Positions 14,638 to 61,833 of a stretch of 64,000 nucleotides of DNA are shown here, piece by piece; the first letter of the stretch is position 1, and every line of letters begins with the position of its first letter. Both the position numbers and the translations under genes were made by a program. The stretch comes from Clostridiales bacterium FE2011. GTDB lineage: Bacteria; Bacillota; Clostridia; Christensenellales; Aristaeellaceae. The stretch is taken from contig CP069418.1 of the NCBI GenBank assembly GCA_017569305.1, positions 1,178,001-1,242,000 of the forward strand, in the 5' to 3' direction. The notes beneath the pieces are model-generated. The model ran no database searches and was not told where the DNA came from. It worked only from the letters and a program-made list of their open reading frames with translations.

Positions 14638-14675
14638 AAAACTCCTGCCTTCAACGCAGGAGTTTTTCTGTTTTT
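14638..14675 (+). terminator. Intrinsic terminator after the LacI-family gene
   Basis: AAAACTCCTGC (14638-14648) pairs with GCAGGAGTTTT (14656-14666), followed by two T-rich runs. Confidence 0.88.
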
Positions 14676-14727
14676 TTTCATTTTTCATTCTTCATTGTCA
14701 TCGCATTAAACGATGACGTAGCCCCCC

Positions 14728-17265: not shown

Positions 17266-18309
17266 ATGAATAAAACCGGAACACAGACCCTGGAAACCCA
17301 TCGGCTGATCCTTCGGCCGTTTAAAATCGAAGACGCTGAAGATATGTTCAATAACTGGGCTTCCGACCCGGAAGTCACCCGTTTCCTGACCTGGCCCACA
17401 CATTCCAGCGTGGATATTACCCGCATGGTATTGAATGACTGGATTTCTCACTATGAGGACGGCGATTTCTTTCAGTGGGCAATAGTCCTGAAGGAGACCG
17501 GCAGCGTTATCGGCAATATTGCTGTTGTGCACTTAATTGAGCAGCTTGAGGAAGCAGAAATCGGCTACTGCATGGGCAAAGCTTTCTGGGGCCGGGGGAT
17601 CATGCCGGAAGCCCTGCGGGCTGTTATGGATTACCTTTTCGACACCGTCAGCCTCCATCGCATCACTGCCCATCATGATGTAAACAACCCCAAATCCGGA
17701 CGTGTCATGGCAAAAGCCGGTATGCTGAAAGAAGGCATTCAACGCGGAGCCGGAAGAAACAATCAGGGCATCTGTGATGTCTGCTGCTACGCCTTGCTGC
17801 AGAGCGACCGCACCCCGGTGGAACGCCATACGTCTCCCGCTCCGGTCATTGTCCGTTTTGCCCGGGAAGAGGATCTGGAAGCAGTAAATAAACTGCGCAA
17901 AGTGGTTAATGATTTACATGTGAAAGGTAAACCCGATGTCTTTAAACCCGGTTTCTGCGACGAGCTGCGGGATTACCTTTTCACAATCTGGAAGGATCCC
18001 GATCAGGAAATTGTCGTGGCGGAAGCAGAAGGAAAAGTCTGCGGCTTTGCCATTCTGCACCATATCAACAGGCCGGAAAACCCCTTCATGTTTGAGCGGG
18101 ATTTCCTGGATATCGATGAATTCTGCGTGGATGAAAACTTCAGGCGGCAGGGTGTTGCCAGCGCCATGATCCGTTTCATTCTTGATTTTGTAAAGGAAAA
18201 AGGGTTCAAGCGGCTTGAGCTGAACATGTGGGAGTTCAACCGCGGTGCCCTGGCTTTCTACGAAGCTGCAGGCTTCAAAACCTTCCGAAGATATATGGAG
18301 ATTATGTAA
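17266..18309 (+). CDS. Tandem GNAT acetyltransferase (two domains fused)
   Basis: A 347-residue protein made of two acetyltransferase domains. Residues 8-185 are RimJ/RimL-like (LETHRLILRPFKIEDAEDM at the start, CoA loop FWGRGIMPEALR at about 107-118). Residues 196-347 form a second GNAT domain (IVRFAREEDLEAVNKLR, CoA loop RRQGVASAMIRF at about 292-303, ending EAAGFKTFRRYM). Both CoA loops look intact. Tandem GNAT proteins include aminoglycoside- and peptide-modifying enzymes, but no target can be named. A hairpin array follows the stop. Confidence 0.85.
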   Translation: MNKTGTQTLETHRLILRPFKIEDAEDMFNNWASDPEVTRFLTWPTHSSVDITRMVLNDWISHYEDGDFFQWAIVLKETGSVIGNIAVVHLIEQLEEAEIGYCMGKAFWGRGIMPEALRAVMDYLFDTVSLHRITAHHDVNNPKSGRVMAKAGMLKEGIQRGAGRNNQGICDVCCYALLQSDRTPVERHTSPAPVIVRFAREEDLEAVNKLRKVVNDLHVKGKPDVFKPGFCDELRDYLFTIWKDPDQEIVVAEAEGKVCGFAILHHINRPENPFMFERDFLDIDEFCVDENFRRQGVASAMIRFILDFVKEKGFKRLELNMWEFNRGALAFYEAAGFKTFRRYMEIM

Positions 18310-18328
18310 TCATAAAGGAAACTGTCAC

Positions 18329-18413
18329 ATTCACCGCCATGCGGTGAATATATCACAAAGGACGGCCATCGGCCGTCCTTTATTTCACATCTGCCGTCAG
18401 GCAGATATTTCAT
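18329..18413. repeat. Hairpin array A: three different stems with constant linkers
   Basis: Hairpins at 18329-18349 (9-bp arms), 18357-18381 (11-bp arms) and 18389-18406 (7-bp arms) have unrelated arm sequences and loops of three to four bases. They are separated by ATATCAC, ATTTCAC and ATTTCAT. The last linker overlaps the stop codon of the convergent HAD gene. The second hairpin, AAAGGACGGCC/GGCCGTCCTTT, could act as a terminator for the GNAT gene. The same architecture recurs at 22729-22862. Confidence 0.75.
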
Positions 18414-19036
18414 TTCCCGCAGGAGTCAATTTCCCTCAGATCCTTTACGATCCTGTCTTCCTGCCCCGTTGCCTCAACGCAGGTGTCCGGCGCCAGGAAA
18501 AGCAAAGCCTTCACGCCTGCGTCCTTCGCGCAGTAAACGTCCAGCGTCCGGTCTCCCACATACCAGGTCTGTTCCGGATCCAGGCCGTATTTCTCTACCA
18601 GGAACCTCACCCCTTCACCCGAGGGTTTGGGCGCAAATCCATACATGGAGGTTACCACTTCCCTGAAGCACTTCAGGACTCCCAGCCGCTCCAGGATCGG
18701 TTCGGAGGAACTTCCCCGGTGTGTATAGACAAAATGAACAGCCCCGGCTTCCTGCAGCCTTTCCAGCGTTTCCTTCGCTCCGTTAATCAGGGTGATCAGG
18801 TCATCCAGTGCGTGTGTATGCTTCTGGTACTGGGCGAACACTTCTCGCACCGTCTTTCCGCACTGACTGCCGATCTCCTCCATGTAGGCAGTGCAGGATT
18901 TCTGCTTCACAACTTTCAGGATATAATCTTTCGGATCATTTATTCCTTCATCAGCTGCCGTTCTGGCGGCTGCCTCAACAATCACGCCATAGGAATCCAG
19001 CAATGTACCGTCCAGATCCCAGATATACGCTGTCAT
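18410..19036 (-). CDS. HAD family hydrolase (phosphoglycolate phosphatase-like)
   Basis: A 208-residue haloacid dehalogenase-superfamily phosphatase. Motif I is DLDGTLLDS with nucleophile Asp7 and Asp9. Motif II is in VYTHRGSS, the lysine motif in APKPSGEG and the acidic motif in YVGDRTLDV. A helical cap (about 15-85) lies between motifs I and II, as in subfamily I enzymes acting on small phosphorylated compounds. The coding strand has GGAGGAG about eleven bases before the ATG. The substrate is unknown. Its stop codon lies in the last linker of hairpin array A. Confidence 0.88.
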   Translation of the reverse strand: MTAYIWDLDGTLLDSYGVIVEAAARTAADEGINDPKDYILKVVKQKSCTAYMEEIGSQCGKTVREVFAQYQKHTHALDDLITLINGAKETLERLQEAGAVHFVYTHRGSSSEPILERLGVLKCFREVVTSMYGFAPKPSGEGVRFLVEKYGLDPEQTWYVGDRTLDVYCAKDAGVKALLFLAPDTCVEATGQEDRIVKDLREIDSCGK

Positions 19037-19123
19037 TTCCGGTCACTCTCCTCCGCCGGCGTCAGTACCGGTCTTTGTCATTATACAGAAACCCGACCGG
19101 ATTGCAAACCAATAACCGCGCAC

Positions 19124-19151
19124 TTGTATTCCCGCCATCCTGATGTATAAT
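19124..19151 (+). promoter_or_regulatory. Promoter of the thioesterase-msrA pair
   Basis: TTGTAT (19124-19129), 16-bp spacer, TATAAT (19146-19151), located 33 bases before the thioesterase ATG. Confidence 0.6.
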
Positions 19152-19183
19152 CTCCATATACTGTTTTGCAGGGAGGGTTGCTC

Positions 19184-19618
19184 ATGGCGCCGTATTCCCA
19201 TCGGGTTCAGTACTATGAAACCGATATGATGGGTGTTGTTCATCATGCCAACTATATCCACTGGATGGAGGAAGCCCGGATCCAATGGATGGATCAGCTG
19301 GGGTTCCCGTACACGGCTATGGAGGAAAAAGGAATCGTCTCCCCGGTCAAAGCCATCTCCTGTGAATATAAGACTCCCTGCACCTTCGGGGATACGGTCA
19401 GCGTGGACATATCGGTCGAATCTTTCAATGGCGTCGTGATGACCATCCGCTATGTCATGCGAAAGAACCCGGACGATATCGTCTGTGAAGCCCGATCCGA
19501 GCATGTCTTCCTGACCCGGGAAGGCCGCTTTGTCCGGTTAAAGCGGGAGATGCCGGATTTCTGCGAGGCAATCGAAAACTCTATGAACACAGTAACAGGA
19601 AAGGAACAGGAATCATGA
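19184..19618 (+). CDS. Acyl-CoA thioesterase, 4HBT/YbgC family
   Basis: A 144-residue single hot-dog-fold protein. It has the family motif YYETDMMGVVHHANYIHWMEE (about 10-30), where Asp14 is the expected catalytic residue. These enzymes hydrolyse acyl-CoA or acyl-ACP thioesters and usually form tetramers in the cytoplasm. GGGAGGG at 19171-19177 decides the ATG at 19184. The stop overlaps the msrA start as ATGA, so the two are translated together. The chain-length preference is unknown. Confidence 0.88.
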   Translation: MAPYSHRVQYYETDMMGVVHHANYIHWMEEARIQWMDQLGFPYTAMEEKGIVSPVKAISCEYKTPCTFGDTVSVDISVESFNGVVMTIRYVMRKNPDDIVCEARSEHVFLTREGRFVRLKREMPDFCEAIENSMNTVTGKEQES

Positions 19619-20103
19619 AAACCATTTATCTTGCCGGCGGCTGCTTCTGGGGAATGCAGAAGTTCTTTGATCAGTTTGACGGCGTTCTCCACACGGAAGT
19701 CGGTTATGCCAACGGTCCGGACAAAGCTCCCTCCTATGAGGATGTCTGCGCTGACAGCGGTCATGCCGAAACCCTCCGCATCGATTATGACGAAACCAGT
19801 ATCACACTGGCGGAACTGCTGAAGTACTATTTCATGGTTATTGATCCCCTGTCCGTCAACCGCCAGGGACATGATGAAGGCATTCAGTACCGTACCGGTA
19901 TCTACTATACGGATGAATCCCTCCTTCCGGAGATTCAGGCCTTTTATCAGGCGGAAGAAAAGAAAGCCGGCGCAAAGCTGGCTGTGGAGCTGGAGCCCCT
20001 CCGGAATTTCTTTTCTGCCGAGGAGTATCACCAGAAATACCTGGACAAGAATCCCGGCGGTTACTGCCATATCCCGAATCAGTATTTCAACCTGAAAAAA
20101 TAA
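19615..20103 (+). CDS. msrA: Peptide methionine-(S)-S-oxide reductase MsrA
   Basis: A 162-residue MsrA, which reduces methionine-S-sulfoxide in proteins and so repairs oxidative damage. The active site GGCFWGMQ is at residues 8-15 with nucleophile Cys10. Other family features are TEVGYANG, HAETLRIDYD and YRTGIYY. Cys45 and Cys153 are further cysteines that could resolve the intermediate. It starts inside the end of the thioesterase gene. No MsrB gene or domain is visible nearby. Confidence 0.95.
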   Translation: MKTIYLAGGCFWGMQKFFDQFDGVLHTEVGYANGPDKAPSYEDVCADSGHAETLRIDYDETSITLAELLKYYFMVIDPLSVNRQGHDEGIQYRTGIYYTDESLLPEIQAFYQAEEKKAGAKLAVELEPLRNFFSAEEYHQKYLDKNPGGYCHIPNQYFNLKK

Positions 20104-20130
20104 CCCGATTCTTACGAACCAGGTCATCTT

Positions 20131-20880
20131 TCAAATGTATTTGCGCAGGCTGACCCACAGCCTGCTCTTTTTTGTTTCATATTCAATCCCGTCATATATG
20201 GCCTTGCCGAAGCCCCGAACCGAAAGGATATCTCCTTCCTTCAGCCTTGTGCTTTTATCCGTTATGACCCGTCCGTTCACAAAAACTTTTTCTGCGCCAA
20301 ACAGCTTTTCCGCCTGTCCACGGGACAACCCCGTGAAGGCTGCCGTTATGGCGTCCAGCCGTTCCGAAATCACATTCAGCCGCAATGGTGCATACTCCGG
20401 CTGAACCTCCGGAATGCCTGTTCCGCACACCTCCGCAGTCACAGCCGTTTTGCGAACCTGCGTCAGGGAAGCGGCCAGCATTTCCGCCGCCGAGGACAGG
20501 CAGAAGAACCATGCCCGTTTCCCCTTCACCAGGATATCCCCGGTCAGGCTGCGGTCTATGCCCAGGTTCATGATTGCACCCAGATAATCCCTGTGTGACA
20601 GTTCCTCCGCGTATTTCATGGACTTTGGCGTCACCGCCACCACACTGATCGGCGGTTCCGCCGGTCCCGCGTCCCTTTCATCCCCCGCTACCAGGATTTT
20701 CCGTTCTGCCGCCTCGTATCCGCCTGTCAGGATAAAGGCATATCGGGCTGCTTCCGGACTGCGCAGCAGTTCGTCCTGTTCCGCCGGGGACAAAAAGCCG
20801 GAATACTGCCAGTTTCCGGTTCGTTCGCTTCTCCGGCACAGGTCCAGCAGATGCCGGAGCGTTGCTTCATTCTCGTTCAT
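20131..20880 (-). CDS. YlmH-like S4-domain RNA-binding protein
   Basis: A 249-residue protein resembling YlmH. An N-terminal region precedes a central domain with RDYLGAIMNLGIDRSLTGDI, which is the YlmH hallmark. The C-terminal S4 RNA-binding domain (about 175-235) contains RLDAI and LFGAEKVFVNGRVI. YlmH proteins bind ribosomal RNA or stalled 50S subunits and have been linked to ribosome rescue. In many Firmicutes the gene sits beside ftsZ, but here it stands alone. It ends 27 bases from the convergent msrA stop. Confidence 0.85.
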   Translation of the reverse strand: MNENEATLRHLLDLCRRSERTGNWQYSGFLSPAEQDELLRSPEAARYAFILTGGYEAAERKILVAGDERDAGPAEPPISVVAVTPKSMKYAEELSHRDYLGAIMNLGIDRSLTGDILVKGKRAWFFCLSSAAEMLAASLTQVRKTAVTAEVCGTGIPEVQPEYAPLRLNVISERLDAITAAFTGLSRGQAEKLFGAEKVFVNGRVITDKSTRLKEGDILSVRGFGKAIYDGIEYETKKSRLWVSLRKYI

Positions 20881-20915
20881 ATAGCCTCGTTTAACTGATA
20901 GAATGATCTTCAGGT

Positions 20916-20940
20916 CCGGATCAGATCCGGCTTTTTCTTT
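20916..20940 (+). terminator. Weak hairpin with T-tract
   Basis: CCGGAT (20916-20921) pairs with ATCCGG (20925-20930), followed by CTTTTTCTTT. It lies between the divergent S4 gene and the xylanase promoter, so it may stop antisense or read-through RNA. Confidence 0.35.
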
Positions 20941-21015
20941 TCACTGTTTTATTCTATCCTCCCGGATATTGTATGGCAAGATAAAAACAACCAGAAATAA
21001 GTATTGTTTAATCAT

Positions 21016-21062
21016 TTGTTGGTACAACTTATTGACATAATGTACGTACAACGGTGTATAAT
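21016..21062 (+). promoter_or_regulatory. Xylanase promoter with two AraR-like operators
   Basis: TTGACA (21032-21037) and TATAAT (21057-21062) are 19 bases apart. TTGTTGGTACAAC (21016-21028) lies just before the -35. ATGTACGTACAAC (21040-21052), with the perfect palindrome TGTACGTACA, lies in the spacer. The pattern resembles operators of GntR-family AraR regulators. A similar site occurs at 53071-53083. Confidence 0.6.
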
Positions 21063-21097
21063 TAATCAACAAAAATGATTAAGGAAGGGGATCTTGG

Positions 21098-22180
21098 ATG
21101 AGCGAAATTCTTTCTCTGGCCAAGGCTTACGAAAAGTATTTCAAAATCGGAGCAGCGGTTTCCCCTATGCAGGTCAAAAAGCATCACGACCTGCTTCTGC
21201 AGCAGTTCAACAGTCTGACGGCAGAAAACGAAATGAAGTATGAACCGACCGAACCGGAGGAAGGGAAATTCTGTTTTGATCTGGCAGATCCCATTGTGGC
21301 TATGGCACGGGAGATGAGCGTGAAAATCCGTGCCCATGCGCCTGTCTGGCATAACCAGACGCCCGCCTGGATGTATCTTGACGGTGACCGTCCCGCCGCG
21401 CCGGAGTTGATTTATGAGCGCATTGACGCCCACACGAAAGCCCTGTGCGAACACTTTAACCAGGATGTATATGCCTGGGATGTGGTGAATGAAGCCACCC
21501 GGGATGACGTACCCGATCCGGAAAAGAATCCGGGAGAAAGCCCCGTTTATCGCAACAGTGAGTACTATAAACTCTGCGGCACCGGCTTCATCGAAGCAGC
21601 CTTCCGCTCCATGTCCAAATATGCCGCCCCTGATGCCCAGCTCTTTTATAACGACTATAGCGAAACTGTCCCGGATAAACGGGATCGTATCGTTTCCCTG
21701 ATCCGTAACCTGCAGGAAAAAGGCTGCCGCGTCGACGGTATCGGTATGCAGCAGCACCATATGGCAGTTCCCGATTATGACGAAATCAAACGCTCCATCG
21801 AAATCTACGCAAATATGGGTCTGCGTATCCATGTGACCGAGCTGGATATCTCCATGATGGCCACCTTCAATCAGGGTAATTACCGCCTTAAGCCGGGAGA
21901 CCCGGGATTTGAGGAATATATTAAGGAAGCACTGAAAACAACTCCCGAAAAGCTCGCAAAGATCAACGAAATCTACGTCAAACTCTTCGAGATCTATCGC
22001 AGCTATGCCGATGTGATCGACTGCGTCACCACCTGGGGTATAGCGGACGATTATACCTGGCTGGATTTCTTCGGAATGAAGCCTGGTTCACCAATCATCA
22101 AGCAGCATCCTCTGCTCTTTGACATCAACGGTGAACCAAAACCCTGTGTCGCGCAGCTCATCGATGCCGTCAAAAACTGA
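21098..22180 (+). CDS. GH10 endo-1,4-beta-xylanase, intracellular
   Basis: A 360-residue glycoside hydrolase family 10 enzyme, a single (beta/alpha)8 catalytic domain that cleaves internal beta-1,4 bonds in xylan or xylo-oligosaccharides. The acid/base is Glu132 in WDVVNEA and the nucleophile Glu248 in VTELDIS. Other family features are TAENEMKYEP and HAPVWHNQTP. There is no signal peptide or carbohydrate-binding module, so it probably acts on imported xylo-oligomers. AAGGAAGGGG precedes the ATG. A controlled promoter lies at 21016-21062. Confidence 0.95.
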   Translation: MSEILSLAKAYEKYFKIGAAVSPMQVKKHHDLLLQQFNSLTAENEMKYEPTEPEEGKFCFDLADPIVAMAREMSVKIRAHAPVWHNQTPAWMYLDGDRPAAPELIYERIDAHTKALCEHFNQDVYAWDVVNEATRDDVPDPEKNPGESPVYRNSEYYKLCGTGFIEAAFRSMSKYAAPDAQLFYNDYSETVPDKRDRIVSLIRNLQEKGCRVDGIGMQQHHMAVPDYDEIKRSIEIYANMGLRIHVTELDISMMATFNQGNYRLKPGDPGFEEYIKEALKTTPEKLAKINEIYVKLFEIYRSYADVIDCVTTWGIADDYTWLDFFGMKPGSPIIKQHPLLFDINGEPKPCVAQLIDAVKN

Positions 22181-22184
22181 CCCA

Positions 22185-22217
22185 AACCAGACAAGGGGAC
22201 GGTTCTTTTGTCTGGTT
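22185..22217. repeat. REP-like palindrome with GGGGACGGTTC loop
   Basis: AACCAGACAA (22185-22194) and TTGTCTGGTT (22208-22217) are perfect inverted arms around GGGGACGGTTC. Hairpins with this kind of loop are scattered in many Firmicutes genomes, which is from memory. Only one copy is seen here. It starts four bases after the xylanase stop and may also end that transcript. Confidence 0.55.
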
Positions 22218-22247
22218 CGAACAATTTGTCATCCATGAAACACAGCA

Positions 22248-22270
22248 GCCGTCCGGACTTTCCGGACGGC
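22248..22270. terminator. GC-rich hairpin between xylanase and MerR genes
   Basis: GCCGTCCGGA (22248-22257) pairs perfectly with TCCGGACGGC (22261-22270). T-tracts are poor on both sides, so its strength as a terminator is uncertain. Confidence 0.55.
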
Positions 22271-22277
22271 CGTCTTC

Positions 22278-22670
22278 TTATGCCTGCTTATCTTTTTTCT
22301 GTTCAGCCTGATACGCCTTCAGCTTCTCTGTGAAGAAGTTCAGCTTCCAGGTCACCTTGTCCAGGTGCTCCTGCATCTCAGCCATCCGTTCCAGCACCCG
22401 TTCCCGATGTTCCCGCAGAAGCTCCACCCGCTCTTCAAGCGTGTGATCTCCTTCATGGGTCAGCTTAACAAAGCGTGCAATCTCCTGGATGGACATACCG
22501 GTATTCTTCAGGCACCGAATCAGTCCCAGCCGTTCCAGGTCTTCCTCTGAATACTGCCGGAACCCTCCCTGGCTGCGTTCCACGCCGGAGATCAGGCCTT
22601 CCTTCTCATAATACCGCAGGGTATGGGTTGAAAGTCCCGTTTTATTGCTTACATCCTGAATCGAATACAT
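22278..22670 (-). CDS. MerR-family regulator (AdhR/YraB-like)
   Basis: A 130-residue MerR regulator. The winged helix-turn-helix is at the N-terminus (YSIQDVSNKTGLSTHTLRYYEKEGL, residues 2-26). A dimerising coiled coil (about 75-120) and a lysine-rich tail follow. It lacks the cysteine pattern of metal sensors. The ATG at 22670 has GGGAGG six bases upstream; an ATG at 22691 would overlap that site. Three MerR-type operators lie at 22692-22709, 23918-23935 and 24146-24163, so it probably controls itself, the adjacent oxidoreductase and the aldo/keto reductase. Relatives such as AdhR respond to aldehydes. Confidence 0.88.
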   Translation of the reverse strand: MYSIQDVSNKTGLSTHTLRYYEKEGLISGVERSQGGFRQYSEEDLERLGLIRCLKNTGMSIQEIARFVKLTHEGDHTLEERVELLREHRERVLERMAEMQEHLDKVTWKLNFFTEKLKAYQAEQKKDKQA

Positions 22671-22691
22671 ATCGAACCTCCCGGTTATCAC

Positions 22692-22719
22692 CTTAGAGTA
22701 AACTTCAACTTCATGTCAA
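22692..22719 (-). promoter_or_regulatory. Candidate MerR autoregulatory site
   Basis: CTTAGAGTAAACTTCAAC (22692-22709) is an imperfect relative of the operators at 23918 and 24146. A minus-strand TTGACA is at 22714-22719, with only a weak -10 (TAAGGT) after it. Confidence 0.45.
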
Positions 22720-22728
22720 TTCTACCCG

Positions 22729-22862
22729 ATAAACTCCTGTCTGTAAAGATCAGGAGTTTATATCATGTCGCGAAGCGATATTTCATATTGGCCGGAACGG
22801 CCAATATTTCACAAATCAGCGTAGCTGGTTTATTTCACATCCGTCGCAGACGGATATTTCAT
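22729..22862. repeat. Hairpin array B: five stems with constant linkers
   Basis: A hairpin at 22729-22761 (11-bp arms, 11-base loop) is followed by four short ones: 22765-22781 (7-bp arms, loop gaa), 22787-22805 (8-bp, gaa), 22813-22831 (8-bp, gta) and 22839-22855 (7-bp, gca). The short hairpins are separated or ended by TTCAT, ATTTCAC, ATTTCAC and ATTTCAT. The arm sequences differ while pairing is kept, with occasional G-T pairs. The array lies between the Gfo/Idh stop and the MerR promoter. Its architecture matches array A. Confidence 0.75.
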
Positions 22863-22898: not shown

Positions 22899-23867
22899 TC
22901 AATATCCGATTTCCTTCAGTATCCTGTCCGTAACCCGTGCAACCAGCAGTGAGAAGTCCTTAGACACATGCGGCTTTTCTCCGGTCAGGATACAGTGGCT
23001 CAGCTGTTCCGATTCCAGGGCATAGTTGTTCGGTGCTGTCACCGTCTTTGTTTCCTTCACCCCATTCTTGATGATGGTATAAGGAATCTCACCACACTGG
23101 TTGAACTCCACCGGGGATACGATCTCGCCCAGGGTCCCGTGGATATGGAACCGGTCCAGCCGTCCGGTCGGCAGCAACATGCCGCAGTCCAGGTTTGCCA
23201 CCGCTTCATTTTCATACAGCAGCAGGGCTGAAGTGAACAGGTCAATCTTTTTGTCAGAGAACTGTGCTGTCGCCCGTACAGTATCCGGCTCCTTCCCCAG
23301 CATCCACATTGCCATGCTGATTGCATAGCAGCCGAGGTCATACAGGGCTCCGCCGTATGTTTCCTTCCGCAGGCGGATATCCGTATCCGGTCTCCTGCCG
23401 GTGATGAATGCAGACTCCAGGTACCGGATTTCTCCGATCACGCCGGCGTCCAGCTCTGCCTTCACAGCTTTCACAAACGGGCTGTGCAGATAGGCAAAGG
23501 CTTCCATCAACATAACGCCGTTTTCCTCCGCCGCCTGGAACATCTCTTTAGCCTGCGCTTCTGAAACCGCCAGCGGCTTTTCACACAGCACATGTTTCTT
23601 TGCCTTCAGGGCTTTAACCGTCCACTCACAGTGAATATCATTGGGCAGCGGAATATAAACCGCTTCCACCTCCGGATCTGCCAGCAGTTCATCATAGCTG
23701 CCGTAAGCCTTCTGAAAGCCAAACTCTTCCTGATATAGTTTTGCTTTTTCCAGTTTTCTGCCCGCAATGGCATACAGCTCGCAGTGCTCCGCCAGCTGCA
23801 TGCCCGGTATTGTCTGTCCCCGGGCAATATCCGCTGTTCCCAGTACGCCCCACTTAACTTTTCTCAT
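22899..23867 (-). CDS. Gfo/Idh/MocA family oxidoreductase
   Basis: A 322-residue NAD(P)-dependent oxidoreductase. The N-terminal Rossmann fold begins WGVLGTADIARG (5-16). The catalytic-lysine motif LCEKPLA is near residue 95. The C-terminal alpha/beta domain contains YDLGCYAIS and supplies the substrate-binding histidine region. The family oxidises or reduces sugars, inositols and trans-dihydrodiols. GGGAGG precedes the ATG at 23867 by six bases. An ATG at 23909 would start at the -10 box. Its promoter carries a MerR operator, so it is probably co-regulated with the reductase genes at 24227-26573. Confidence 0.88.
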   Translation of the reverse strand: MRKVKWGVLGTADIARGQTIPGMQLAEHCELYAIAGRKLEKAKLYQEEFGFQKAYGSYDELLADPEVEAVYIPLPNDIHCEWTVKALKAKKHVLCEKPLAVSEAQAKEMFQAAEENGVMLMEAFAYLHSPFVKAVKAELDAGVIGEIRYLESAFITGRRPDTDIRLRKETYGGALYDLGCYAISMAMWMLGKEPDTVRATAQFSDKKIDLFTSALLLYENEAVANLDCGMLLPTGRLDRFHIHGTLGEIVSPVEFNQCGEIPYTIIKNGVKETKTVTAPNNYALESEQLSHCILTGEKPHVSKDFSLLVARVTDRILKEIGY

Positions 23868-23908
23868 AATAATCCTCCCGTAAGTATAAAACGTTTTCCT
23901 TTGTCTCA

Positions 23909-23939
23909 ATCATAAACCTTAAAGTTTACTCTAAGTCAA
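23909..23939 (-). promoter_or_regulatory. MerR-type promoter of the Gfo/Idh gene
   Basis: Minus strand TTGACT (23934-23939), 19-bp spacer, TATGAT (23909-23914). The operator CTTAAAGTTTACTCTAAG fills 23918-23935. A 19-bp spacer is the usual sign of MerR-type activation. Confidence 0.7.
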
Positions 23940-24141
23940 CAGCCGCAAATGATAAAGTCATATCCATCATTCACAATGTGAATACCATTCCCCCGCTTCG
24001 CCCGATTTATGTGCGTCAGTGTCTTTGCGGACAAAGGCGCAGCGCAATCGGAGGATGTGGTTCGGTTTTTCAGCAACTCTCCGCCGCAGCGGATAATTCT
24101 GAATTATGAATTTTGAATTGGAAACTGCCACTTGTTTACTA
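23940..24141. other. Intergenic region without a recognisable gene
   Basis: It holds a small inverted repeat ATTCAC-aat-GTGAAT near 23970 and a run of TTCTGAATT-like units at about 24095-24120 (see also 34194 and 61795). I see no coding frame with a ribosome site. Confidence 0.4.
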
Positions 24142-26573: not shown

Positions 26574-26592
26574 GCATCAATCTGTAAATGTT
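26550..26592. repeat. Perfect 20-bp inverted repeat spanning the dehydrogenase stop codon
   Basis: Arms 26550-26569 and 26573-26592 are exact reverse complements around GTA. The left arm is coding sequence and the stop codon TAA is at 26571-26573. No T-tract follows, so it may protect the mRNA 3' end rather than terminate. Confidence 0.75.
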
Positions 26593-26630
26593 CACTCTTC
26601 ACTCTTCACTTTTCACTCTTCACTCATCAC
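26591..26630. repeat. Short tandem repeat TTCACTC
   Basis: Five slightly varied copies of a 7-base TTCACTC/TTCACTT unit lie between the dehydrogenase and ABC exporter genes. A small GACCGGAGG/CCTCCGGTC hairpin follows near 26637. Confidence 0.65.
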
Positions 26631-26693
26631 CGCAGACCGGAGGTCTCCCTCCGGTCTGTATACTCTTCACTGGAGAATTCTCCCGAGGTTTTT

Positions 26694-34125: not shown

Positions 34126-34193
34126 CTTCTTTTATGGATTCATTTTTGCATATTTATCCGCTCGTTCTGAACAAATCCATGTGCCTCATCAGT

Positions 34194-34228
34194 AATAATT
34201 CTGAATTCTTAATTCTTAATTCTGAATT
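34194..34228. repeat. TTCTGAATT/TTCTTAATT short repeat cluster
   Basis: Four 9-base units of the TTCTGAATT/TTCTTAATT type lie directly after the stop of the binding-protein gene. Related clusters are near 24095 and 61795. Confidence 0.6.
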
Positions 34229-34232
34229 ATAT

Positions 34233-36227
34233 TTATTCCTCTTCCGGTACTTCCGGCACATAGTCCGACAGGTAAGCACCTATGGAAGCTTCTGGCCAGG
34301 AAATATTCGACGCAATCTTATACTCGTGCAGCACCTGCGGATAGAAGTCAAAGTACACGTTGGAATACATCGGCAGCAGCGGCAGCTGCTCTGCGAAACG
34401 CTTCTGGAAGGCCAGCCATTTCGTGCAATAGCCCATCAGGTCTTCGGGCTCAGTCCGGCGCATATCCACTGCCAGTTTCCAGAGTTCGTCATCCGCCAGT
34501 CCGGAAGTTTTCCAGACGTGATGTCCTTCTTCATCCACCGTAAAACTAAGAGAAGGATCATACAGCAGGTCGAAGTTTGTCGCGAGGAAGTACATGTCAT
34601 ACTTCGTCTCGCTCATTCTGTAAAACTGGTACAGCATAGCGTCTGCGTCCATGGCTTCAACGATCAGCTCAATGCCGATCTCCGTCAGGGACTGTACCAG
34701 TGCGCCTTCCAGCGCTTCCCCGGCCGCACTTCCGGCCCCGTATGCCATCGTCAGCCGCAGCGGCACCAGGCCTTCTTCTGTCTGCTTATAGCGCAGCTTG
34801 TCAGATCCCTGGACAAAGCCGTCACCGTCTGCATTCCGGTTCCATCCGGCATTGTCCAGCAGCTCCGCGGCCTTTTCCAGGTCACGGTCATAGGGTTCTA
34901 TACCATCCAGTGTCAACTCTTCCCATTGTTCAATGGTCTTCTCGTATTCCGCTTTTTCCTTTTCAGTGGCATTTTCATCCGGTTCGTCCACAGGATACTG
35001 TACCGTACCGTTCAGCAGCAGGTACATCCACTGTCCCATGCCGAAGTAGCCCATGCCCTTCATGCCGTAGCCATCCAGGGCTTCCTTCACCACTTCATCC
35101 CGGTCCGCGGCATATGCGATTGCCTGTCTTACAGCCAGGTCATCCAGCGGTGCGCGGTCTGTATTGAAGCTGATGAAACTCAGGCCGGTTCTGGCATAGT
35201 TGGCGGAAGTGTACATTTCATCCTCGGCTGCTTCGCCCAGCAGCTGCGTGATCGTCCCAGCGTCGCTGACCTTGTTCAGCAGCGTGACCTTACCTTCATG
35301 ATAAGCATCGATCATCTCGTCCGAAGGCATCGAAATCATCGTGACCTTCTTGATCATAGGCTTCTGGCCTTTGGAATTGCCCTTGTACTGCGGGTTGATT
35401 TCAAACTTGGCCACGCCGTCCTCATAGGATGTCAGCACATACGGCCCGCTTGTTACAGACGGGTGTGTTTTGTAGCCGCTTGCTTCATCCAGGATCGTAC
35501 CCTTCAGCAGATCTGCCGTAAATACGGCTTCATTTCCACCTTCTTTGTTGGTCAGGTATACGCCTTTGCCGTCATCCGCCACTTTCACGCCGGGAGCAAT
35601 CACAGCAGCCGGATAAGGTATGCAGTCCAGCAGGCCCAGCTCGTAGAAGAAGGGCAGGTACGCGTGATCTATTGTGATGTGCATCAGGTGATCGTTCACT
35701 ACTCTTACACCGGTCAGGTGATCGGTTTTTCCGCTGATGTAGTTGCTGTAGCCGGCAATATATTCCGGCTGGTGCACACCCGCGCCCAGTTCTTTCAGTT
35801 CCGGGGCCATGGTCAGCAGGATGGAGAAGGCATAATCCCAGGCGGTCACCGGTGTGCCGTCGCTGTAGAACAGATCTTCGTACAGGGCGATGATAAAGGT
35901 GATATCGCCGTTATCCGCCTGCTGCACATTCACACCGCTGATTACGGACTCATCTGGAACAAACACGCCGTCTTCCGTGTTCCATTCAATCAGGTTATAT
36001 CCGTGGATCATGGCGCGTACGTCCATATCACTGCTGCCGTTTCCCCACAGATTGGTGAAGAAGTTCCCGGTCAGCGGCGTTGTGACGGCTACCGTCAGTT
36101 CTTCATAATCATATGTGATCTGCGGCTTTTCTTCAGCAACAGGTTCTTCCGCTGTTTCCGCCAGTCCGGCTGTAACAGCTGTCAGTGCCATCACGCATAT
36201 GAGCAGATATGCCAGCAGTTTTTTCAT
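34233..36227 (-). CDS. Peptide ABC transporter substrate-binding protein (SBP family 5)
   Basis: A 664-residue extracellular solute-binding protein related to OppA/DppA. Residues 1-23 are a signal peptide (MKKLLAYLLICVMALTAVTAGLA) with an AxA-like cut site and no lipobox. The mature part has FSDGTPVTAWDYAFSI-like and LDDLAVRQAIAYAADRDEVV motifs typical of family 5. No permease or ATPase genes are next to it, so it is an orphan that must use another importer or act as a sensor. An acidic insert (about 395-430) is longer than usual. Confidence 0.88.
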   Translation of the reverse strand: MKKLLAYLLICVMALTAVTAGLAETAEEPVAEEKPQITYDYEELTVAVTTPLTGNFFTNLWGNGSSDMDVRAMIHGYNLIEWNTEDGVFVPDESVISGVNVQQADNGDITFIIALYEDLFYSDGTPVTAWDYAFSILLTMAPELKELGAGVHQPEYIAGYSNYISGKTDHLTGVRVVNDHLMHITIDHAYLPFFYELGLLDCIPYPAAVIAPGVKVADDGKGVYLTNKEGGNEAVFTADLLKGTILDEASGYKTHPSVTSGPYVLTSYEDGVAKFEINPQYKGNSKGQKPMIKKVTMISMPSDEMIDAYHEGKVTLLNKVSDAGTITQLLGEAAEDEMYTSANYARTGLSFISFNTDRAPLDDLAVRQAIAYAADRDEVVKEALDGYGMKGMGYFGMGQWMYLLLNGTVQYPVDEPDENATEKEKAEYEKTIEQWEELTLDGIEPYDRDLEKAAELLDNAGWNRNADGDGFVQGSDKLRYKQTEEGLVPLRLTMAYGAGSAAGEALEGALVQSLTEIGIELIVEAMDADAMLYQFYRMSETKYDMYFLATNFDLLYDPSLSFTVDEEGHHVWKTSGLADDELWKLAVDMRRTEPEDLMGYCTKWLAFQKRFAEQLPLLPMYSNVYFDFYPQVLHEYKIASNISWPEASIGAYLSDYVPEVPEEE

Positions 36228-36308: not shown

Positions 36309-39254
36309 TTACTCGATGGTTTCGCCGACATTGATACTGCCCAGACCGATGCCCAAAGGCGTCTCAAAGTCGTCAATCGTGATGATCACCGGGTTCTTTA
36401 CGTAGATAACTGTGACGGTCACATCCCTTGCGGGCATTGTGCCTTCCACCTTCTTGGTGTTGGTGTAGTACGTGTTGATTGTGGGAGATACGACGCTGTA
36501 CTCGTCTCCGAAGTGGAGCACTTCCGTATAGGTCGCGGCGGCTTCTGTGCCGTCCTGGTACTTATACAGGATTGTCAGCGTGTATTCTTCCGCAGTGTAA
36601 ACCACGTCGTATTCCATGTCCTTATCCAGGACACCCTTAACTCTCTCTGTATCAGCAGTATAACCCTCAATCGGCGGAGTTGCAACATCATATGCAGTAC
36701 CGGCCTTTTCGACCCGGTTGATCGTATTGATGAGCTCGCCGTTCTTGCTGCCGATCCAGTAGCGGATAATCAGGGTTACCTTGGTTTCGATCGTGGGTTC
36801 GGGATCCTCACCGGGTGTCACAGGCACGTCGGGATTCTTCGGATCCGGGCTCTTGCCTTCAGCCGTTGCCACGTTCAGCACTTCACCGGCTGCCGCGTCT
36901 TCAGCGGTTACGGTGTAGCTGGTTTCGAATTCCTTCGTTGCACCGGGCGCCAGGCTTTCAACCGGCCACTTGTCTCCGGTCAGATCATCAATCACGTTGA
37001 TATTGGTGATCGTCAGGTTACCGTCGTTCACGGCCGTGATCTTGTAGGTGATCACTTCGCCTTCTGCGTAGCCCTTTTCATCCTTGGGCGTGGAAGTAGT
37101 CTCTTTGTTGACCGTCAGGTGTCCATTCGGATCTTCGGGATCATCATCCGTCTTACCCGGTGTTACAGGCACGTCAGGCTCATCCGGATCCGGGCTCTTG
37201 CCCTTAGCAGTCGCTTCGTTGATGATGTGGCCGCTGAGGATGTCGCCTTCGGTCACTGTGGTGGAAGCGGTGTATTCCTTGCTTTCACCAGGTGCCAGGC
37301 TGTCGATCTTCCACTCGTCACCGGTCCGTTCATCCGTTACGGTGATTTCAGTGATCGTCAGGTTGCCGTCGTTCACAACGGTGATCTTGTAGTCAAGTGT
37401 TTCGCCCAGCTTGTATCCGTCTTCCGGCGTCTCGCTGGTGGTCTCCTTGATCACTGTCAGATGTCCCTTCGGATCTTCAGGATCATCATCTGTATGTCCG
37501 GGATCAACCGGTACGTCAGGTTCATCCGGATCCGGGCTCTTACCCTTTGCGGTTGCATCGTTGATGATGTGGCCGCTGAGGATATCGCCTTCGGTCACTG
37601 TGGTGGAAGCGGTGTATTCCTTGCTTTCACCAGGTGCCAGGCTGTCGATCTTCCACTCGTCTCCGGTCCGTTCATCCGTTACGGTGATTTCAGTGATCGT
37701 CAGGTTGCCGTCGTTCACAACGGTGATCTTGTAGTCAAGTGTTTCGCCCAGCTTGTATCCGTCTTCCGACGTCTCGCTGGTGGTCTCCTTGATCACTGTC
37801 AGATGTCCCTTCGGATCTTCAGGATCATCATCTGTATGTCCGGGATCAACCGGTACGTCAGGTTCATCCGGATCCGGGCTCTTACCCTTTGCGGTTGCAT
37901 CGTTGATGATGTGGCCGCTGAGGATATCGCCTTCGGTCACTGTGGTGGAAGCGGTGTATTCCTTGCTTTCACCAGGTGCCAGGCTGTCGATCTTCCACTC
38001 GTCTCCGGTCCGTTCATCTGTCGCAGTGATGTCGGTGATCGTCAGGTTGCCGTCATTCACTACCGTGATCTTGTAGGTGACTGTCTCACCCAGCTTGTAA
38101 CCACCTTCCGGCGTCTCGCTGGTAGTCTCCTTGATCACTGTCAGGTGACCATTCGGATCTTCAACCTTAACCGATGCGTTGGCACTCCACTCTTTTTCCA
38201 CAACCCTCGCCGTCACCGTGTTGGTGAAGCTGCCTGCCAGGATATCGGCTTCCGTAATGGTGTAGGTTGCGGTGGTGGTGATCTCTGCTCCGGGTTCAAC
38301 ACCTTCGAAGGTATCCTTAGCCAGGGTCACACCTTCGATTTCGATCAGCTTGATCGTCACAATGTCATCATAGATGTTCTTAACCCAGATATCGAAGGTC
38401 ACTTCTTCACCCAGTTTGTACACGGTGTCGTCGGCAGTCTTCTTCACCACCAGGTCATCCGGCACATTCTCATCATCCACGATGAGTTTACCTTCCGTCT
38501 TGGTAATGTCGTAGTTATCTGCCTTGGTATTCTCCTTGAGCGTAACGGTGAATGCATTCGTGCTTTCTCCAACCAGGGTCTGGCTGCCGGTGAAGCTGTA
38601 GGTCGCGCCTTCACCATCCACCCAGCCAGTCTCAACCGTCAGGCCGTTGGCATTCTTACCATCAACATCCGCGTTCGTCAGAGCTTCACCGTTATAAGAT
38701 CTCTTAGCATTACCGCTGGTCAGGGTAACTGCACGTTTTGCTATCTTCAGCTGGCCATCCACGATTTTGAACTCAACATTCGTGAAGTTCGTGTTCGTGT
38801 TCTCGAAGTCTCCCGCCACGATACCCATGTCATAGGTACCCGCGTCGGTCTTCGTCACGGTCCAGGCAGCTGTCTCGGTTTCCGCCACGGATGTCGCCAC
38901 GTCGTACAGCGTGTTATCAGCCACAATACTCTTGTACCCCTTGATCGTATGCGGCTGTCCGTCGTATGTCACTTCGTCGCTGTTCTCAGTGATCGTGACC
39001 GTGACTTTGTCGGTAATCGGCTTGATCTTCAGCTGGCCGTCCACGATCTTGAACTCAACATTCGTGAAGTTCGTGTTCGTGTTCTCGAAGTCTCCCGCCA
39101 CGATACCCATATCATAGGTACCCGCGTCAGTCTTCGTCACGGTCCAGGCAGCTGTCTCGGTTTCCGCCACGGAAGTCGCCACGTCGTACAGCGTGTTATC
39201 GGCCACAATACTCTTGTACCCCTTGATCGTATGCGGCTGTCCGTCGTATGTCAC
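36309..39254 (-). CDS. Giant surface adhesin, C-terminal part (separated by a frameshift)
   Basis: This 981-residue frame continues the protein of 39251-49837 after a one-base deletion near 39287. Its apparent start is inside a repeat and is not a real start. It holds the last two 94-residue repeats and one more beta-rich module (KRAVTLTSGNAKRSYNGEAL). A DUF11-like module and four 114-residue DUF11/DUF7507-like repeats follow (TVIKETTSET onward). Then come two MucBP-like segments (VTLIIRYW, YTLTILYKYQDGTEA). It ends in DDFETPLGIGLGSINVGETIE-like sequence with no LPxTG motif and no terminal membrane helix, so wall attachment is unexplained. Confidence 0.85.
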   Translation of the reverse strand: MTYDGQPHTIKGYKSIVADNTLYDVATSVAETETAAWTVTKTDAGTYDMGIVAGDFENTNTNFTNVEFKIVDGQLKIKPITDKVTVTITENSDEVTYDGQPHTIKGYKSIVADNTLYDVATSVAETETAAWTVTKTDAGTYDMGIVAGDFENTNTNFTNVEFKIVDGQLKIAKRAVTLTSGNAKRSYNGEALTNADVDGKNANGLTVETGWVDGEGATYSFTGSQTLVGESTNAFTVTLKENTKADNYDITKTEGKLIVDDENVPDDLVVKKTADDTVYKLGEEVTFDIWVKNIYDDIVTIKLIEIEGVTLAKDTFEGVEPGAEITTTATYTITEADILAGSFTNTVTARVVEKEWSANASVKVEDPNGHLTVIKETTSETPEGGYKLGETVTYKITVVNDGNLTITDITATDERTGDEWKIDSLAPGESKEYTASTTVTEGDILSGHIINDATAKGKSPDPDEPDVPVDPGHTDDDPEDPKGHLTVIKETTSETSEDGYKLGETLDYKITVVNDGNLTITEITVTDERTGDEWKIDSLAPGESKEYTASTTVTEGDILSGHIINDATAKGKSPDPDEPDVPVDPGHTDDDPEDPKGHLTVIKETTSETPEDGYKLGETLDYKITVVNDGNLTITEITVTDERTGDEWKIDSLAPGESKEYTASTTVTEGDILSGHIINEATAKGKSPDPDEPDVPVTPGKTDDDPEDPNGHLTVNKETTSTPKDEKGYAEGEVITYKITAVNDGNLTITNINVIDDLTGDKWPVESLAPGATKEFETSYTVTAEDAAAGEVLNVATAEGKSPDPKNPDVPVTPGEDPEPTIETKVTLIIRYWIGSKNGELINTINRVEKAGTAYDVATPPIEGYTADTERVKGVLDKDMEYDVVYTAEEYTLTILYKYQDGTEAAATYTEVLHFGDEYSVVSPTINTYYTNTKKVEGTMPARDVTVTVIYVKNPVIITIDDFETPLGIGLGSINVGETIE
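36792..38159 (-). repeat. Four tandem 342-bp repeats encoding DUF11-like domains
   Basis: Four units of 114 residues run from DPNGHLTVIKETTSE to the Asp/Pro-rich linker ending PGHTDDDPED. Units two and three are almost identical in DNA. The fourth is most diverged. Confidence 0.85.
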
Positions 39255-61759: not shown

Positions 61760-61794
61760 TGTTTGACTTCCTCCATGTCTGTTATGTATTCACA

Positions 61795-61830
61795 AATAAT
61801 TCTGAATTCTGAATTCTTAATTCTGAATTG
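61795..61830. repeat. TTCTGAATT/TTCTTAATT short repeat cluster
   Basis: Four units of the same 9-base repeat as at 34194-34228 lie directly after the stop of the MacB-like permease gene. Confidence 0.6.
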
Positions 61831-61833
61831 TTT

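Follow-up and report, generated by a model that had tools for sequence, protein, structure and literature searches.

REP elements and REPINs are short palindromic intergenic repeats present in many copies, a description that also fits the arrays reported here; in REP elements the stem sequence is conserved and carries a 5' GTAG-like foot. The Gut-1 RNA motif (RF01706), a candidate RNA described by Weinberg et al. 2010 (PMC2864571), resembles the arrays in its TGAAAT linkers, its tandem hairpins and its varied stems. The attC sites of integrons likewise keep structure over stem sequence and fold on one strand; of 30 sedentary integrons, 25 had that strand on the leading template (PMC5371416). 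Loops of the GNA/GNNA type are reported to form very stable DNA mini-hairpins (PMC4686876), it has been proposed that clusters of hairpins a short way downstream of stop codons act as terminators (PMC8355165), and heptamer tandem repeats have been described in bacteria, e.g. TAACTGA repeats (PMC4679880).

Two hairpin arrays in the window

The window, i.e. the whole 64,000-nt stretch of DNA that was analysed, contains three hairpins at 18329–18413 (array 1) and five at 22729–22862 (array 2), with ATTTCAY-type linkers between them:

18320–18328, plus strand: terminus-like AACTGTCAC ahead of array 1 hairpin 1 (consensus AAGTAACTATCAC)
18329–18349, plus strand: array 1 hairpin 1, 9-bp arms, loop CAT
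18350–18356, plus strand: array 1 linker ATATCAC
18357–18381, plus strand: array 1 hairpin 2, 11-bp arms, loop ATC
18382–18388, plus strand: array 1 linker ATTTCAC
18389–18406, plus strand: array 1 hairpin 3, 7-bp arms, loop GTCA (GNNA)
18407–18413, plus strand: array 1 linker ATTTCAT, containing the minus-strand stop codon TGA of the HAD-like gene 18410–19036
22729–22761, plus strand: array 2 outer hairpin, core 22731–22759 (9-bp arms 22731–22739 and 22751–22759, 11-nt loop), two further outer pairs extending it to 22729 and 22761
22760–22766, plus strand: array 2 linker ATATCAT
22767–22779, plus strand: array 2 hairpin 1, loop GAA, outer G.T pair
22780–22786, plus strand: array 2 linker ATTTCAT
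22787–22805, plus strand: array 2 hairpin 2, loop GAA
22806–22812, plus strand: array 2 linker ATTTCAC
22813–22831, plus strand: array 2 hairpin 3, loop GTA, one T.G pair (T-A in genomes G035 and G001)
22832–22838, plus strand: array 2 linker ATTTCAC
22839–22855, plus strand: array 2 hairpin 4, loop GCA
22856–22862, plus strand: array 2 linker ATTTCAT, 36 nt from the stop codon at 22899

The two arrays and their linkers, as claimed in an earlier note on this DNA, are real: when the window was simulated 100 times with a first-order Markov model, a detector that reports both gave no array of at least two units. Array 1 is a copy with three hairpins; array 2 has four plus the outer one, which differs from the remaining units. 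Each array lies 3' of the stop codon of a minus-strand gene, at 18410 for array 1 and at 22899 for array 2 (oxidoreductase-like gene, 22899–23909), and array 1 is also downstream of the plus-strand gene 17266–18309. The same note was right that the arrays follow stop codons, a position that is general across the copies, and that one linker overlaps a stop codon, namely that of the HAD-like gene.

A dispersed element of four hairpins

Both arrays are copies of one dispersed element, present in about 50–60 copies in this genome. This short non-coding DNA repeat, of about 100–125 bp, begins with the terminus AAGTAACTATCAC, continues with four hairpins that have an ATTTCAY linker in each of the three gaps between them, and closes with a final ATTTCATT. 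In four genomes, exactly four hairpins were found in 127 of 153 arrays, with AAGTAACTATCAC as the common terminus. The hairpins are in tandem as first described, but they usually come as an element of four and not as an open row. Further arrays had been anticipated in the genome, and they are there: the two-linker pattern GATATTTCAYAT..ATATTTCAY gives 27 matches against 0 in the reversed control, and ATTTCAY-N10-40-ATTTCAY gives 169 against 2.

That pairing and linker persist while stems differ is verified at the 50–60 loci or so, plus one orthologous site (that of array 2 in genome G008). The information of the element is its architecture, not its stem sequence. The stems do vary, but their identity is not as free as supposed: most arms begin with AT and many end with C before a GNA loop. 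The arrays are not CRISPRs, their repeated part being the 7-nt linker and their variable parts the hairpins; nor do they have the form of intrinsic terminators, a GC stem directly followed by a U-tract, as linkers come after the hairpins.

The Gut-1 match and the strand of the folding signature

By covariance-model score (at least 50 bits), array 2 belongs to Gut-1 and array 1 does not:

22755–22840, minus strand: Gut-1 (RF01706) match in array 2, 51.3 bits for a cut-off of 50
18345–18437, minus strand: Gut-1 match in array 1, 25.5 bits, under the cut-off

The genome has 64 matches at E≤0.001, 23 of them above the cut-off; what entered the catalogue in 2010 as an RNA of the human gut matches here a repeat dispersed in dozens of copies in a genome, unlike Gut-1 as catalogued. 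Moreover the Gut-1 model has three hairpins, whereas the arrays usually have four and a terminus, and it is built on the TGAAAT strand, whereas the arrays carry their folding signature on the ATTTCAY strand, the complement of the one in Rfam. This last observation is new.

It is carried by mismatched pairs and by loops. Read on the ATTTCAY strand, 277 unique hairpins contain 30 G.T against 9 A.C pairs (p 0.0011), a count of only 39 mismatched pairs in which three of the four genomes share many orthologous arrays, and for which G002 alone gives 3 against 2. A mutational asymmetry is rejected as the source of the G.T excess, since substitutions in the flanks are balanced (2163 GT-type against 2222 AC-type). 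On the same strand 117 of 180 triloops are GNA and 2 are TNC. Among 65 tetraloops, 22 are GNNA, equally divided between GNRA (11) and GNYA (11), i.e. without an RNA-type purine preference. Hairpins outside arrays in the same DNA have GNA loops in 29 and TNC loops in 44 of 173 cases: it is not the loop type per se which is special to the arrays, but its one-sidedness. Energy models for DNA and RNA loops scored the ten triloops compared alike.

Orientation, replication and placement behind genes

Orientation was counted for arrays that have at least two linked units and are flanked on either side by a called gene, that is 53 of 60 entries in G000 (seven single-unit fragments being dropped), 38 of 39 in G035 and 28 in G002; G001, in 50 contigs, was left out. 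Genes were called with a home-made caller, and leading and lagging strands were deduced from GC skew and gene strand. The TGAAAT strand is the GC-skew leading strand in 48/53, 36/38 and 24/28 copies respectively. The ATTTCAY strand would then be the leading-strand template in 108 of 119 copies, likewise a new observation; as a caveat, dnaA is not at the GC-skew switch, and one sampled stretch (640 kb) shows the opposite skew. The orientation of genes is insufficient to explain this alone: in the same stretches 415 of 659 called genes are on the leading strand (187/303, 118/186 and 110/170) and 244 oppose replication, against 2 of the 85 copies behind a co-oriented gene, the other 83 being replication-consistent. 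Targeting of the lagging-strand template, as by IS200/IS605-like elements, was considered as a model and is unsupported, the folding strand being on the other template.

Of the 85 copies behind co-oriented genes, 71 start at -4 to 36 nt from the stop codon; for 34 of the 119 copies, the gene called upstream runs in the other direction. So tight a placement is also predicted by a function in 3'-UTR RNA.

We tentatively favour, at a little under an even chance, the view that the arrays are a structure-defined repeat of single-stranded-DNA type with a putative writer. The constrained form would be single-stranded DNA, the ATTTCAY strand being folded into a row of tight mini-hairpins with GNA/GNNA loops and 7-nt single-stranded linkers between them; the molecule would be DNA rather than RNA. 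Copies might be spread or exchanged by a factor reading hairpins and linker, in the manner of the integron integrase on attC. The folding strand would lie on the leading-strand template because copies in the opposite orientation, which expose it on the lagging-strand template, would be unstable and lost; a position just after a stop codon would let copies survive, since no gene is broken there.

The main rival to this reading is a 3'-UTR RNA role, which we hold possible but somewhat unlikely: RNA of TGAAAT sense, the one modelled in Rfam, would fold after the stop codon and would end, protect or be processed from the upstream mRNA. The distance of the copies to co-oriented stop codons speaks for it, as do terminator-like sites at most 170 nt after the arrays (13/53, against 3/53 random windows), the occupancy of a site maintained across 83% identical flanks despite different stems, and the precedent of hairpin clusters behind stop codons proposed as terminators (PMC8355165). 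However, this role predicts an excess of G.U on the TGAAAT strand and the reverse was found (9 against 30, without mutational bias); its sense loops would be UNC triloops, and the copies lacking a co-oriented upstream gene do not suit it. We know of no RNA reason for the 117:2 loop skew. Of the ideas in the earlier note, mRNA ends or RNA processing agree with where the arrays lie, but not with the strand that bears the folding signature.

An RNA from the ATTTCAY strand, whether a free-standing small RNA or the tail of a convergent transcript, would share the strand evidence with the single-stranded DNA reading; yet in 85 of 119 copies it would run in antisense towards the neighbouring gene's 3' end, in many cases a promoter of its own would be required, and the GNRA share of the GNNA tetraloops (11/22) does not reveal the expected preference. 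We consider it quite improbable.

Turnover between relatives

Relatives differ by gains, losses or exchanges of copies and of hairpins, which is also a new observation. Whole copies are present or absent between relatives whose paired flanks are 94–95% identical; array 1, absent from G035, G001 and G008, looks like a recent gain. At the array 2 site of G008, where the flanks are 83% identical, the same four-hairpin layout is found with a different stem in each position, the last hairpin resembling the first of the window. A clean one-unit (26-nt) difference is seen at 3240858, and a concerted swap of linkers from ATTTCAY to ATATCAT at 2017268. Movement is slow, as most comparable copies are shared with G035 (27/30; 23 others are without a comparable interval). 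No insertion junction was found: the presence/absence sites are replaced stretches, without clean insertions or target duplications. The identity of a G004 array across species was rejected as proof of movement; the whole 3-kb piece is 99.97% identical to G001 and is probably a mis-binned or shared contig.

In relatives the arms are mostly still paired, with some single unpaired changes. Compensatory changes do occur, 9 of 10 double stem changes keeping Watson-Crick pairs in two overlapping genome comparisons, but they are rarer than hairpin replacement. Single stem changes outnumber double ones (17 and 8 in the two comparisons), and only two sites, 3237655 and 1556026, have double changes in arrays not otherwise replaced.

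The arrays might instead be a by-product of replication, in which fold-back template switching makes and perfects palindromes and the linkers are simple microhomology junctions; this would fit arms that pair well though their sequence varies, the tight GNA turns of one strand and the replication polarity. Such an origin leaves the usual four hairpins and the shared terminus unexplained. Also against it is the same linker in hairpin arrays of distant bacteria, e.g. Akkermansia, though these were found by searching for that linker. We regard this origin as very doubtful.

Distribution and heptamer tracts

Three-linker matches number 86–102 in each of four genomes and are absent from 28 of 37 genus genomes (own genome included, many incomplete). 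Of 398 genomes sampled from the phylum, 78 have matches to the three-linker pattern, with more than six only in the own genome; the other sequences listed were unlike arrays by eye, and none of 19 newly fetched loci had one. Among the matches listed from a GTDB pattern scan, the detector finds arrays in 19 of 119 loci, mainly Clostridia with two Akkermansia-type; among those listed from viral contigs, it finds one doubtful array in 120 loci. The listed matches of both scans are mostly due to chance.

Tracts of period 7 tend to sit at sites without arrays, again a new observation; in relatives, some sites orthologous to an array carry such a tract. Hairpin arrays and heptamer tracts, both of them unexplained repeats between genes, are thereby linked: the same sites behind genes can hold either. 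Heptamer tandem repeats resemble the arrays by their 7-nt unit and intergenic location and differ by the lack of hairpins; homology of their unit to the linker is only a lead. Speculatively, and with a high probability of being wrong, a putative polymerase (reverse-transcriptase- or terminal-transferase-like) might write DNA at 3' ends near gene ends, by templated 7-nt words (ATTTCAY, ATATCAY, AATTCAY and others) and snap-back self-copying on a GNA loop. Words alone would give heptamer tracts, and words with snap-back four-hairpin arrays. If true, this would account for varied but well-paired stems, for GNA turns on one strand, for the concerted change of constant linkers, and for the mutual replacement of arrays and tracts at the same sites.

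Comparison with mobile systems

The mobile palindrome-making process imagined in the earlier note is consistent with copies being gained, lost and swapped, but no enzyme for it was found; the RAYT (TnpA-REP) transposase, tried as the mover, is tied to other repeats and was rejected. Inspection covered 23 of 48 Y1 matches, on 20 stretches of nine genomes: no ATTTCAY array lies in the 260 nt before or about 300 nt after each gene, and the RAYT-type genes mostly adjoin GGGACGG/GGGACTG-type repeats. Nor does their presence follow the arrays, several genus members having RAYT genes without three-linker matches (e.g. G010, G013, G018, G019) and G005, 70% complete, having 19 such matches and no RAYT gene. 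Unlike REP elements, the arrays have stems that vary and a foot that is TCAY.

If the repeat is of single-stranded-DNA type, the search for its writer becomes concrete, genus genomes differing sharply in copy number. The arrays differ from attC sites by their several hairpins per site and their constant linker, and no cassettes were seen; on the other hand they share with them the primacy of structure over stem sequence and the folding of one strand, and the replication polarity of the repeat resembles that of integron attC sites, mostly on the leading template in sedentary integrons (PMC5371416).

A four-hairpin element repeated in the genome

Both hairpin arrays with constant linkers described in the earlier note were found, and are composed as follows when read on the strand carrying ATTTCAC or ATTTCAT (hereafter ATTTCAY).

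18329-18406: array 1, three hairpins, linkers ATATCAC, ATTTCAC, ATTTCAT
22729-22855: array 2, a hairpin with a long loop followed by four ordinary hairpins, linkers ATATCAT, ATTTCAT, ATTTCAC, ATTTCAC, ATTTCAT

When the window was simulated 100 times with a first-order Markov model, no array was detected. Further tandem linkers, for which a genome-wide search had been suggested, do exist: across the whole genome (G000), a single contig of 3,562,493 bp in which the window spans 1178001-1242000, the two-linker pattern gave 169 matches against 2 for the reversed pattern. Forty stretches fetched from this genome, comprising most of the first 100 of the 169 matches listed plus samples for GC skew, contained together with the window 60 arrays or fragments according to our detector, 53 of them with at least two linked units (a unit being one hairpin and its linker). 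In G000 and three other array-rich genomes of the genus (G035, G001 and G002), the hairpin count is exactly four in 127 of 153 arrays, and hairpin 1 is preceded by bases with the shared consensus AAGTAACTATCAC, so that the usual repeated unit is an element of about 100–125 bp: AAGTAACTATCAC, four hairpins with ATTTCAY between each, then ATTTCATT. A generic detector without any linker assumption, applied to 3.02 Mb of fetched sequence, reported 132 arrays with mostly TGAAAT and some TGATAT linkers, although this sequence had largely been selected through the ATTTCAY pattern. Two arrays often face each other, hairpin-1 ends inward (stretches L073 9623-9869, L082 4043-4295 and 5716-5966, L124, L130, L162, L165 and L176); in L176 the facing pair occurs twice, 2.7 kb apart.

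The complementary, TGAAAT strand is the one modelled by Rfam as Gut-1 (RF01706). Array 2 matches this model (22755-22840, minus strand, 51.3 bits for a cut-off of 50), and array 1 scores 25.5 bits, below the cut-off (18345-18437, minus strand). At least 64 Gut-1 matches, 23 above cut-off, occur in G000 among the 150 of 379 first-look candidates that were scored. Our literature search found no further papers on Gut-1 RNA or RF01706 in the collection searched.

Distribution among genomes

Three ATTTCAY linkers in tandem were matched in 12 of 61 genomes (own, genus and order): 102 times in G000, 86–90 times in three others, 19 in G005, 12 in G047 and 1–3 in the remaining matched genomes. Besides G000, none of the 398 genomes of a phylum sample exceeds 6 such matches. 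On named GTDB contigs the detector recovered arrays in 19 of 119 loci among the matches listed, mostly from Clostridia MAGs; two are Akkermansia-type (L117, L123). A Kiritimatiellae contig (L138 2170-2330) holds an ordinary tandem repeat of similar appearance, with about six near-identical hairpins and constant TTTAAATC-type linkers. A 3-kb piece assigned to genome G004 (L043, contig G004:C57) is 99.97% identical to G001 (L404), and is probably a mis-binned or shared contig.

A sister family uses the linker ATATCAY, with 12, 9, 17 and 13 three-linker matches in G000, G001, G002 and G035 respectively; two genomes from other families of the order have 25 and 19. Its pattern was matched in 15 of 61 genomes, although some of these matches, judging from the sequences listed, are due to chance. 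In the matches listed for genome G044, linkers ATATCAC and ATATAAC alternate between repeated hairpins.

Turnover between relatives

Array 2 is kept in G035 and G001 with nearly unchanged stems. At the orthologous site of genome G008, whose flanks are 83% identical, four hairpins are separated by ATTTCAC/AATTCAC linkers and the stem differs at each position, the last hairpin resembling the first of the window; the claim that linker and pairing are kept while stems differ is borne out there. In G002 and G005 the array is absent from this site and a 7-nt tandem tract is present. At the array-1 site (18309-18410), G035, G001 and G008 carry a gene and a GACAAGGGGACGG repeat in place of the array. 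This gene, of 224 aa with a 4Fe-4S domain in G035, is missing in G000 exactly where array 1 sits. As the more distant G008 agrees with G035 and G001, array 1 would most simply be a gain in G000, accompanied by loss of the 4Fe-4S gene.

Between G000 and G035, at 27 paired sites with flanks 95.3% identical, 49 units are identical and 22 substituted; the remaining 11 have been replaced or differ in length. Among stem changes, 17 are single and 5 double, all five double changes leading from one Watson-Crick pair to another. In only one of these cases (3237655) do the other units of the array persist; for the rest, three at 368802 and one at 3364938, the other units or the entire array look replaced. 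One further clean double change separates G000 from G001 at 1556026. Compensatory changes, for which aligned loci were to be inspected, are therefore real (clean at 3237655 and 1556026) but rare, replacement being commoner. A clean difference of one unit (26 nt) occurs at 3240858, and a 29-nt difference at 3239042 lies within an array differing throughout. An entire array can also be swapped for one with a different linker: at 2017268, ATTTCAY linkers in G000 correspond to ATATCAT throughout in G035. The arrays of G000 are present at 27 comparable sites of G035 and absent at 3, another 23 being without a comparable fetched interval. About one hairpin remains in the array-less allele L344 3886 (G001 versus G035), so that array loss also occurs.

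Period-7 tracts at array sites

Intergenic regions of the genus often contain tracts of period 7 (AATTCTG/AATTCTT, AATTCAY, TTTTAAG, CTCTTCA and CCTCCTA families), which at times occupy the site of a relative's array. Those of the window are listed with one further feature.

14663-14701: period-7 tract
24091-24127: period-7 tract
26582-26633: period-7 tract
34190-34234: period-7 tract
61793-61833: period-7 tract
39251-49837, minus strand: open reading frame of 3528 aa, with a long open reading frame on the opposite strand

In intergenic intervals of 60–500 nt from the G000 and G035 stretches, a tract was found in 65 of 190 array-less intervals versus 7 of 78 array-bearing ones (Fisher, 9e-6), a contrast somewhat overstated because masking the arrays leaves less searchable sequence. 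Of seven array-less alleles chosen by eye at five sites, six carry a tract under the same criterion; by eye, other array-less alleles (e.g. L401 4031, L344 3886, L413 4943) show none. At one G035 site the tract opens with AAGTTACTATCAT and closes with TATTCATT, closely like array ends. The linker is itself 7 nt long, and the tract word AATTCAY is one base from ATTTCAY. A common origin of tracts and arrays is no more than a lead. In 65 of 135 tracts listed, TTCAY-type words predominate on the non-leading strand; the opposite holds in 19 and neither in 51.

Which strand folds

On the ATTTCAY strand, the non-Watson-Crick pairs of 277 unique ATTTCAY-linked hairpins from the four genomes are G.T in 30 cases, A.C in 9 and other in 25, an excess of G.T over A.C with p 0.0011. 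By genome the ratio is 14:3 in G000, 12:3 in G035, 6:1 in G001 and 3:2 in G002, the first three being not independent since many orthologous arrays are common to them. The flanks show no such bias: their substitutions on this strand, polarised using three genomes, number 2163 toward G.T and 2222 toward A.C. Triloops of this strand are GNA in 117 of 180 cases and TNC in 2; tetraloops are GNNA in 22 of 65, with a purine at position 3 in half and a pyrimidine in half. Among hairpins outside arrays in this DNA, which are unoriented, both loops are common (GNA 29/173, TNC 44/173); the peculiarity of the arrays is the one-sidedness of GNA versus TNC. A G.T excess without flank bias, together with one-sided loops, indicates that it is the ATTTCAY strand that is under constraint. 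Extraordinarily stable DNA mini-hairpins with GNA and GNNA loops are described in PMC4686876, and the loops suggest that the constrained molecule would be DNA rather than RNA.

Orientation, placement and possible mechanism

In sampled stretches of G000, GC skew stays negative over the first 1.7 Mb or so (640 kb excepted) and is positive beyond about 1.85 Mb, and the majority of coding sequence agrees with this direction. The gene dnaA lies away from the skew switch in assemblies of one or two contigs (G000:C1:3135481, G035:C1:1423269, G002:C1:1306313), so that the position of the origin is one we infer. If the G-rich strand is taken to be the leading one, this is the TGAAAT strand in 48/53 copies of G000, 36/38 of G035 and 24/28 of G002; the folding ATTTCAY strand is therefore the leading-strand template. 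Among the five replication-opposed copies of G000, three are members of closely spaced facing pairs, one has an array opposite it 0.7 kb off and one is alone (2010208).

In 85 of 119 copies the called gene upstream has the same orientation as TGAAAT, and in 71 of these 85 (35/38, 24/27 and 12/20) the array starts -4 to 36 nt past the stop codon, the value of -4 arising because the stop TGA sits within ATGAAAT. This placement is better accounted for by the main rival, namely that the arrays are sense 3'-UTR RNA, which accounts worse for the strand evidence and which we consider rather unlikely. Only 2 of the 85 co-oriented copies are replication-opposed, versus 244 of 659 called genes. Our tentative preference, held at somewhat less than an even chance, is that the arrays are a structure-defined repeat of single-stranded-DNA type.

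Movement by RAYT transposases, the Y1-type enzymes of REP elements, is unlikely, judging from the repeats that flank RAYT genes. Repeats of the GACAAGGGGACGGTTC..TTGTC type adjoin many RAYT-type Y1 transposase genes (near window 22188-22215; L074 6089-6165; L379-L398), and their variants seem to differ between RAYT genes.

For a repeat of single-stranded-DNA type, the orientation of the arrays would be best explained by the precedent of integrons, whose attC sites fold as one strand: according to PMC5371416, the leading template carries the folding strand of attC in 25 of 30 sedentary integrons, which limits excision.
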